Shown here: positions 61,823 to 64,000 of the stretch, one piece after another
Layout of the letters: the number at the start of each line of letters is the position of its first letter
Position numbering within the stretch: position 1 is the stretch's first letter
Assembly (NCBI RefSeq): GCF_000315055.1
Contig: NZ_BAER01000038.1
Span: 1 to 64,000 of the forward strand
Direction: 5' to 3'
DNA: 64,000 nt
DNA from: Paraglaciecola polaris LMG 21857
GTDB lineage: Bacteria > Pseudomonadota > Gammaproteobacteria > Enterobacterales > Alteromonadaceae
The notes under the pieces: generated by a model
The model's input: only the letters and a program-made list of their open reading frames with translations
What the model was told of the DNA's origin: nothing
Database searches by the model: none
Program-made: the position numbers and the translations under genes

Positions 61823-62752
61823 ATGAATTTACCTTTTGTCGAACAACGCCTTAATCAAAGTACTCAGTATGTGGGTCGGTTTGCGCCATCCCCTTCTGGT
61901 CCTTTGCATTTAGGCTCATTAGTCGCCGCGCTGGGCAGTTATTTACGTGCCCGTCAATTGGGTGGCAAGTGGCTATTACGTATTGAAGATATTGACCCTC
62001 CCAGAGAGCAATCGGGCGCCACGGAACGTATTCAAACCACGTTAGCCTGCCATGGTTTAATATGGGACGATGAGGTTGTGTATCAGCATGATAACCACAG
62101 CCATTATGAGCAAGCATTAACAGCATTATTCGTAAATGGTCATAGTTATTACTGCCAATGTACTCGTAAAGAGCGTTTAGCCAATCCCCAGGGGCAACGA
62201 TGCCCATGTGCAGAATTAATACTTGCCCCAAGCACCAGCGCCATAGTTTTGCGTAATTCACTTGGGATCACTGAAATGAATGACCTACTACTAGGGCAGA
62301 TCAGTTTTGGTGAAGAGGCGAAAGAGGATTTTATTTTACGTCGTAAAGACGGTTTATATGCATACCAGTTGGCGGTTGTTGTGGATGATATTCACGCTGG
62401 AGTAACCGAAGTGGTGCGTGGCGCAGACATTTTACCCGCCACAGCTTATCAATTGGCGCTGTACCGATTATTCGAGCGATCACCGCCAGTTTATCTGCAT
62501 TTACCCTTAGTACTGGGTGAGAATAATCAAAAACTAAGTAAACAGAATCACGCTCCGGCATTGATAAATACAAATGCTCGGCGTAATTTATGCACCGCGT
62601 TAGGCTTTCTCGGTCTGAAAGCGTCGGCCAATATGAATGATGCTCCCGTGGATGAAATATTAGCTTGGGCAACGCATAACTGGAACGTGACGCTAATCGC
62701 TGATAAAGCGAATGCGTTTGGCAATAGAATTGACGCGTCAGACAGTATATGA
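61823..62752 (+). CDS. gluQRS: Glutamyl-Q tRNA(Asp) synthetase
   Basis: A 309-residue paralogue of the catalytic half of glutamyl-tRNA synthetase; it attaches glutamate to queuosine in tRNA(Asp). The HIGH-like motif is PSGPLHLGSL, the KMSKS-like motif is KLSKQN, and zinc ligands are in YYCQCTRKE and CPC (about 113-133). No anticodon-binding domain is present, as expected. It uses queuosine, whose last synthesis step (QueG) is also encoded in the window. Downstream pcnB lies in the same reading frame. Confidence 0.95.
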   Translation: MNLPFVEQRLNQSTQYVGRFAPSPSGPLHLGSLVAALGSYLRARQLGGKWLLRIEDIDPPREQSGATERIQTTLACHGLIWDDEVVYQHDNHSHYEQALTALFVNGHSYYCQCTRKERLANPQGQRCPCAELILAPSTSAIVLRNSLGITEMNDLLLGQISFGEEAKEDFILRRKDGLYAYQLAVVVDDIHAGVTEVVRGADILPATAYQLALYRLFERSPPVYLHLPLVLGENNQKLSKQNHAPALINTNARRNLCTALGFLGLKASANMNDAPVDEILAWATHNWNVTLIADKANAFGNRIDASDSI

Positions 62753-62806
62753 TCACACGCGTTAAAAACCCTACTATGGGTAAACCGTCATCATGGAGCT
62801 GAACTT

Positions 62807-64000
62807 ATTATTTCTCGTGTAATCAACAAGGTAAAAGAAGCGTTTAAAAGCACGCCGAGCATTACTAAACCCACTCTTGTTGCCAATATAATTCCTCGTG
62901 CTGAGCACCCTGTGTCACGCAGTGATATCAGTGATAATGCCCTCAAGGTACTTTATCGTTTGCATAACAACGGCTTTCAAGCTTACTTGGTCGGTGGTTG
63001 TGTACGAGACATTTTATTGGGTAAAGAACCCAAAGACTTTGACGTGACGACGGATGCAACACCCGAGCAGGTTAAAGAGTTATTCAGAAATTGTCGCCTT
63101 ATTGGGCGTAGGTTTCGGTTAGCCCATGTGGTTTTTGGTCGAGAAATTATTGAAGTAGCAACTTTTCGAGGTCATCACCCTAATCAAGATGAAGAGGCTA
63201 AAGACAACTTAAGTAAACAAAGTGATCACGGTCAATTATTGCGTGACAACGTTTTCGGCAGCATTGAAGAAGACGCAGAGCGTCGAGACTTTACCGTCAA
63301 TGCCATGTATTACAATATTGCAGACTTTAGTATTCATGACTTTGCTAAGGGTATGCAGGCCATTGAAAAACGTGAAATTAGCATGATTGGGGACCCTGCG
63401 ACACGCTATCGAGAAGATCCTGTTCGTATGTTGCGTGCTGTCCGCTTCGCCGTTAAGTTGGGCATGAAAATTAGCCCTGATACGGCAAATCCCATGTACG
63501 AACTTGCTCCTTTGATGGCTAATATTCCCTCTGCACGTTTATTTGAAGAAGTACTTAAGCTGCTGCTTTCAGGTCAAGGCCTAGAAACATACAAACTGCT
63601 GAATGAATTTAATTTATTTGAGCAGTTATTCCCACAATTAGGGCCGTTGTTAAAAACACAGAATAGCCGTGAGTTAGCATTTATAGAACAAGTGCTGATG
63701 AACACAGATAACCGTATCAATTCAGACATGAAAGTTACCCCCGCTTTCATCTTCGCCGCTTTATTGTGGTATCCATTAGAAGAGCGTTGTCAGCAGCATA
63801 TGGTAGAGGGTGGACTCAATCACTTTGATGCTTTTAATTTGGCACTAAGTGACGTGTTACACCGCCAGATACAACGTATTATGATCCCCAAGCGCTTTAC
63901 TATTACCGTGCGGGAAATTTGGCAGTTACAGCAACGATTGCCAAAACGTTATGGGCGCAGAGCGTTTCAGATGCTTGAACATCCAAAGTTTAGAGCCGCC
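62807..64000 (+). CDS. pcnB: Poly(A) polymerase I (partial, ATT start)
   Basis: The gene runs off the window; about 398 residues are visible. It adds poly(A) tails to RNA, promoting decay. Seen: IPRAEHPVSRSDISDNALKVLYRL, VGGCVRDILLGKEPKDFDVTTDATPEQVKELF with the nucleotidyl-transferase aspartates, RRFRLAHVVFG, VATFRGHH, SIEEDAERRDFTVNAMYY and YREDPVRMLRAVRFA (quoted as separate landmarks). Between the gluQRS stop and the conserved core there is no in-frame ATG, GTG or TTG at the right place. The frame reads ATT ATT TCT CGT GTA at 62807-62821, with GGAG (62795-62798) eight bases before the first ATT. E. coli pcnB is known to start at AUU. Either ATT (62807 or 62810) could be used. Confidence 0.9.
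   Translation, partial: MISRVINKVKEAFKSTPSITKPTLVANIIPRAEHPVSRSDISDNALKVLYRLHNNGFQAYLVGGCVRDILLGKEPKDFDVTTDATPEQVKELFRNCRLIGRRFRLAHVVFGREIIEVATFRGHHPNQDEEAKDNLSKQSDHGQLLRDNVFGSIEEDAERRDFTVNAMYYNIADFSIHDFAKGMQAIEKREISMIGDPATRYREDPVRMLRAVRFAVKLGMKISPDTANPMYELAPLMANIPSARLFEEVLKLLLSGQGLETYKLLNEFNLFEQLFPQLGPLLKTQNSRELAFIEQVLMNTDNRINSDMKVTPAFIFAALLWYPLEERCQQHMVEGGLNHFDAFNLALSDVLHRQIQRIMIPKRFTITVREIWQLQQRLPKRYGRRAFQMLEHPKFRAA

Follow-up and report, generated by a model that had tools for sequence, protein, structure and literature searches.

AUU start codons are generally treated as a peculiarity of two Escherichia coli genes. The start of E. coli pcnB, the gene of poly(A) polymerase I (PAP I), is known to be AUU, and low initiation is reported to keep PAP I scarce, as given in the title of the original paper and in citations of it (Binns & Masters 2002, Mol Microbiol 44:1287). 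An AUU start, together with autocontrol by initiation factor IF3, has also been described for E. coli infC, the gene of IF3 itself. In Streptomyces, the regulatory gene sigR is described as kept low by a non-canonical GTC start that is misannotated in genomes, and repression by IF3 was measured there (PMC5472188). The case of sigR resembles that of pcnB in these features and differs in gene, codon and phylum, and in that its IF3 effect was measured. In Staphylococcus, cvfC1 (AUU) and ccpN (AUA) carry conserved non-canonical starts with a strong extended Shine-Dalgarno (SD) sequence, the conservation of the cvfC1 start being described among staphylococci (PMC13009471). These two genes share with pcnB the conserved non-canonical start and the SD, and they are unrelated genes of another phylum. 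On pcnB starts, the accessible text of two further articles (PMC11742677, PMC8710568) held nothing past a reference. The breadth of AUH (AUU, AUC or AUA) starts in pcnB and their survival across unlike N-termini had no published account in the partly accessible sources consulted; Binns & Masters 2002 may discuss relatives.

The pcnB locus of Paraglaciecola polaris LMG 21857 was compared with these systems. The window is the whole stretch of 64,000 nucleotides that was analysed, and all features described lie on its forward strand. The upstream neighbour gluQRS (tRNA glutamyl-Q(34) synthetase, 61823-62752) was identified by a profile model match, and its TGA at 62750-62752 is the in-frame stop upstream of pcnB. 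The two genes share one frame over 61823-64000, with a single TGA and then 54 bases to the ATT. The pcnB gene occupies 62807-64000, where it is cut by the window end; in the whole genome the open frame counts 479 codons from the upstream stop. The window protein scored 484.7 bits against the NCBI PcnB subfamily model TIGR01942 (cut-off 305.65) and 559.8 bits against the equivalog NF008634 (cut-off 702), the query lacking the C-terminus that is cut by the window end. The gene order dksA-gluQRS-pcnB was found, gluQRS by model; the window dksA is presumed from its reading frame and a motif only. The order in E. coli K-12 is the same, dksA-gluQ-pcnB.

The SD core GGAG lies at 62795-62798 (GGAGC, -5.6 kcal/mol) and is followed by the spacer 62799-62806 and the ATT at 62807-62809, so that the eight-base spacing given in the initial annotation was found exactly. 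A walk along the frame from the TGA at 62750 to the GTG at 62912 revealed no ATG, GTG or TTG, in agreement with the earlier observation that no ordinary start separates the gluQRS stop from the conserved core. In a MAFFT alignment of 137 loci, the ATT at 62807 shared its column with the AUU start of E. coli K-12, the window start IISRVINKVKEAF being aligned against IFTRVANFCRKVL. This alignment and the conservation described below strongly support the proposal that pcnB starts here at an ATT homologous to the E. coli AUU. The two loci agree in the gene, the aligned codon, the gene order, the upstream SD and the N-terminal amphipathic stretch, and they differ in the SD (GAGGTG in E. coli, GGAG here) and in codon 2 (TTT in E. 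coli, ATT here). Expression has been studied for the E. coli gene; the gene of the window is described here from its sequence. The AUU start passed all the sequence tests made and, judged from the alignment, is homologous to the E. coli case. A second ATT stands at 62810, directly after the first, and initiation one codon downstream would use the same codon and the same SD. A conserved Ile is indeed found one codon further on in some families (for example in L030 and L040); however, the SD spacing is 8 bases to 62807 and 11 to 62810, and it is the first ATT that aligns with the start Ile of E. coli, which makes a start at 62810 improbable.

The conservation of the site was analysed within the genus in 22 genomes, the own genome and 21 others, of which 21 loci were used, one locus (L018) being cut at a contig end. 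Codon 1 was ATT in 20 loci and ATA in one, thus AUH in all, while codon 2 was ATT and codon 3 was TCT in 21 of 21. In the core of the same loci, 2 of the 64 amino-acid-invariant, degenerate codons kept a single codon. The GGAG and the motif ATHATTTCTCG recurred in the 21 loci, separated by 8 or 9 bases of variable sequence. Nineteen of them had no ordinary start from the in-frame stop to the Ile codon, the exceptions being L020 with two TTG and L023 with one GTG. An upstream ATG in close relatives, which had been named as an argument against the AUU start, was absent between stop and Ile codon in all 21 loci. Three loci (L004, L005, L009) had no ATG, GTG or TTG anywhere upstream of the catalytic motif; in these, a canonical start would remove part of the core. 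As a separate observation, pcnB of a one-contig genus genome (G001:C1:511280-512466) was split into two matches that lie in different frames, one of them interrupted by two TAA stops, and may represent a broken gene or an assembly error.

The near invariance of codons 1 to 3 at synonymous sites could also mean that the site is conserved for another nucleotide function, such as an RNA structure or a small RNA site, and is not a start. The constraint, however, falls on the SD and the start while the spacer varies, and other families keep AUH and SD with a different sequence; this reading is considered very improbable. A special RNA structure at the start was tried as a candidate and rejected, the fold of the window sequence being weak (-6.4 kcal/mol for 76 nt). 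In another explanation ribosomes would arrive at pcnB by reading through the gluQRS TGA, or else through coupling to, or a frameshift from, a mini-ORF of nine codons that begins at an ATG in another frame (62793-62822) and overlaps the pcnB SD and start. The frame shared by gluQRS and pcnB with one TGA between them, and the overlap of the mini-ORF ATG with the SD, favour it. Against readthrough, stops lie one or two codons upstream of the site in some relatives (L028, L010 and loci of other families), and the peptide before the ATT at 62807 is not conserved. The mini-ORF ATG was found in 4 of 21 genus loci only and was judged incidental and not a general mechanism. Both routes were rejected, and there is hardly any probability left for them. 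A start at the GTG of 62912-62914, which is the first ordinary start codon in the frame and would give a protein without the first 35 codons, can practically be dismissed, as this GTG encodes the V of HPVSR inside the conserved IPRxEHxxSR block, occurs among the genus loci read only in the window and in L020, has no canonical counterpart before the catalytic motif in the three loci named above, and would discard a conserved N-terminal stretch. Initiation at the AUU of 62807 is, by sequence comparison, shown as well as the letters of the DNA by themselves can show it.

The initial annotation had proposed an alignment of the upstream region in other Alteromonadales, and this was carried out on 216 aligned loci, consisting of 135 order-sample loci, two E. 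coli records and 79 of 80 named loci. Left out of the order sample were five of 77 rows without locus (G067, G074, G094, G144, G146) and also G037; L348 gave no motif. The start codon was called by the strongest SD no more than two codons away from the aligned column, a rule that raises SD strength slightly and is corrected for by five-codon control windows. Four loci called AUH by the rule (L113, L114, L115, L302) were taken out by hand because an ATG follows. AUH was found at the site in 170 of the 216 loci (144 ATT, 22 ATC, 4 ATA), some single calls by the rule, such as L073, L106, L107, L293 and L349, being doubtful. The SD energy was -4 kcal/mol or lower in 155 of the 170 AUH loci, and 106 of the 170 had no ordinary start between stop and site; in 21 AUH loci the in-frame stop lay at most four codons from the site with no ordinary start between. 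The AUH start occurred in 21 of the 25 family codes of the order sample, a few of them represented by single, doubtful loci. Of the 79 named loci, 61 had it (L293 and L349 doubtful). The named genera with AUH include Alteromonas, Glaciecola, Shewanella, Colwellia, Pseudoalteromonas and Idiomarina, and further Photobacterium, Ferrimonas, Serratia, Citrobacter and Xenorhabdus. Within E. coli, the 65 bases around the K-12 start were matched in 5374 of 5426 genomes, 5367 of them at 99% identity or more; one of the seven matches below 99% was inspected and showed a change at -2 with the ATT intact.

The association of the Ile codon with the SD was evaluated against controls. An SD of -5.5 or lower preceded 89% of the 170 AUH sites vs 6% of 1880 matched five-codon windows. 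The share of ATT was 144/170 at the start vs 708/1369 among internal Ile codons (p = 2e-17). When all codons of the order sample were compared, ATT was the one most associated with an upstream SD (120/240 vs a base rate of 9.7%, p = 2e-56), and in the named set ATT again ranked first, with 63 of its 126 codons preceded by an SD. When the codon with the best SD was picked blindly from ATG, GTG, TTG, ATT, ATC and ATA in 136 order-sample pcnB genes, the choice fell on ATT in 90, ATC in 11, ATA in 1 and ATG in 8. The same pick on the control gene dksA, made in the 56 loci of the named set, returned ATG in 52; none of the 56 lacked an ordinary start (24 not found). The dksA order sample was dropped, 3 of its 14 loci having seemed startless and several of the 14 regex matches not being dksA. 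The gluQRS gene lacked an ordinary start in 0 of 55 order loci (82 not found) and in 0 of 59 named loci (21 not found). In pcnB, no ordinary start at all was present up to the core in 26 of 136 order loci and 8 of 79 named loci. As a control, gluQRS serves well for the presence of an ordinary start and poorly for the SD test, weak SDs standing before the majority of its sites (37 of 55 and 34 of 59).

Outside the order, a class sample of 128 loci was analysed, of which 4 were without the motif and 124 were read, 12 of 112 rows being left out for want of a locus. No ordinary start was present up to the core in 17 of the 124, GTG or TTG only in 35, and an in-frame ATG in 72; AUH stood at codon -36 in 20. 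The SD enrichment of ATT was mild (23/121, p = 0.0045), with CCT and ACC ranking equally high. A class-wide claim from the class sample alone was rejected on the grounds of the 72 loci with in-frame ATG and the mild enrichment, and single orders were read in depth because the enrichment was weak. The orders of G163, G192 and G171 hold 1, 2 and 2 genomes only. In the order of G222, referred to as the second order, 57 genomes were searched, 53 gave a match and 50 loci were read, 3 of 23 rows without locus being left out as partial genes.

In part of this second order, PcnB has a short, unlike N-terminus of the pattern I-N-E-P-V-I-I-P-R-A-Q-H. AUH was found at codon -36 in 26 of the 50 loci (ATT 25, ATC 1). 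Upstream of that codon 15 of the 26 AUH loci had no ordinary start and 11 had one; 10 of the 26 were also without ordinary start before the core, and in 6 of these 10 the distance from the in-frame stop to the AUH codon was two codons only. Internal Ile codons of the second order favour ATC (169/242) whereas the start favours ATT (25/26, p = 6e-12). The SDs are moderate, with a median of -4.4 vs -1.5 at control Ile codons (p = 1e-14). The other 24 loci, family f172 among them, were without AUH at -36. The f172 loci (L431-L440 and others) had no AUU at -36 and mostly a common TTG at -40, which may be the start of those pcnB genes. In G192 and its genus-mate G301 (L164, L394), a common CGGAG SD and the ATT at -36 were found behind different upstream sequences. 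AUH is thus retained in loci whose N-terminal peptide is another one, and conservation of the weak start codon reaches beyond the peptide it begins.

The N-terminal stretch of the window protein, (M)ISRVINKVKEAFK, is encoded at 62807-62848; it is conserved, amphipathic and positively charged, and is likely to form a helix. Over the first 12 residues of the 170 AUH loci the mean moment was 0.68, with a mean z of 2.0 vs shuffles and 94% of the loci above z 1, and the mean net charge was +2.9. By these properties the stretch resembles a membrane-binding helix or membrane-targeting sequence. Residue 28 of the window protein is the first one covered by TIGR01942, and the model is therefore no help in fixing the start.

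The loci without an AUH start were also examined. Among the named loci, 18 of 79 were non-AUH: 12 of Halomonas and kin, 3 of Vibrio, and others. The Vibrio loci L282, L295 and L302 start with ATG (MNKNDY), and those of Halomonas and kin with ATG (MFKGF and similar peptides). Family f14 has GTG in 3 of 3 loci, and family f7 has ATG in 4 of 6 with 2 unclear and no AUH. Families f13 and f26 showed no AUH, 4 of 6 loci of family f21 were undecided, and the small genomes L110 and L113 were also without an AUH start. In the window's own family, 5 of 40 loci were not called AUH (L029, L053, L097, L131 and the cut L018). Since the AUH start is not universal, AUU is dispensable. A rough tree gave at least seven changes between AUH and canonical starts, a minimum that is itself rough, the FastTree tree having been built on about 113 core residues and 207 rows, 190 of them labelled, some by hand. 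Family f20 reads ATG GTA in 4 of 5 loci; in these loci (L043, L044, L068, L096) ATG GTA replaces the Ile start, the ATG standing one codon upstream of the aligned site, and it is perhaps a switch to a strong start.

The infC gene of the window's genome was read as well and has the sequence GGAGG...ATT AAA GGC. At this locus (L058 / L360), GGAGGAATAACAT precedes ATT AAA GGC, and one codon separates the ATT from an in-frame TAA (TAA CAT ATT). The gene thus also appears to start at ATT, by which both infC and pcnB would have a non-NUG start in this genome. A survey of infC matched 58 of 59 genomes; 30 loci were fetched, and AUH was found at the start in 27 of the 27 that were readable, by eye, including members of f7, f14 and f20. 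In seven of these 27 an ATG, GTG or TTG is present in the start stretch as well. Members of f7, f14 and f20 thus combine an AUH infC with a pcnB that mostly has ATG or GTG, and the two genes are therefore not linked in their start codons. The autocontrol of infC has a feedback logic that pcnB lacks.

In the mechanism proposed for the window locus, ribosomes would bind the GGAG at 62795-62798 and initiate pcnB at the AUU of 62807 with the initiator tRNA, giving PAP I as (M)ISRVINKVKEAF... with its N-terminal amphipathic stretch intact. AUU would pair poorly with the initiator tRNA, so that initiation would be slow and PAP I scarce, acting as a throttle on RNA polyadenylation. As IF3 rejects non-NUG starts, this throttle would respond to the balance of IF3 and ribosomes, as it does for infC. 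By analogy with E. coli, PAP I would be kept scarce by low initiation at AUU; the IF3 sensitivity of the pcnB start, for which E. coli infC and Streptomyces sigR are the models, is put forward with less support. AUH is retained by most of the families sampled in the order, and AUU by part of a second order whose PcnB has another N-terminus; the weak start codon itself therefore appears to be under selection. Taken as a whole, the explanation by initiation at GGAG and AUU 62807, with a putative throttle by scarce PAP I, a putative IF3 response and apparent selection on the weak start, is regarded as highly probable. A wider reading, to which we incline with reserve, holds that in much of the Gammaproteobacteria an AUU or AUC start of pcnB is the old condition, maintained by selection, and that the start outlasts the peptide because an inefficient, IF3-sensitive start sets the dose of PAP I. 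The lineages with AUG or GUG (Vibrio, Halomonas and kin, f7, f14) would then be natural replicates that must limit PAP I otherwise. If AUH is kept across most sampled families of one order and AUU in part of another, weak initiation is a selected trait, and selection is likely to target the dose of an enzyme by which RNA is marked for decay; the ATG and GTG lineages offer a ready comparison for the purpose of the weak start.

The annotation of pcnB starts was inspected, as automatic annotation had been expected to miss the true start. This expectation failed for E. coli K-12, E. coli SE15, one other E. coli and Enterobacter hormaechei, in which the RefSeq start is at ATT, and it appears to hold for Legionella adelaidensis, annotated from an internal TTG. 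In the latter (plasmid record, L448:510-570) the CDS begins at a TTG that lies ten codons within the open frame and follows an in-frame AUC/AUA stretch; a stop stands two codons before an ATC that is preceded by GGTGA, and the skipped stretch IIKIIKK resembles that of L187. In some genomes the pcnB start may thus be annotated too far downstream, with loss of the conserved amphipathic N-terminal stretch. The pcnB of Amphritea japonica is annotated from ATG. A 150-kb E. coli plasmid record (CP044307.1:133038-134436) matches 88% of a pcnB-covering query at 69% identity, and the region is annotated there as two hypothetical proteins.
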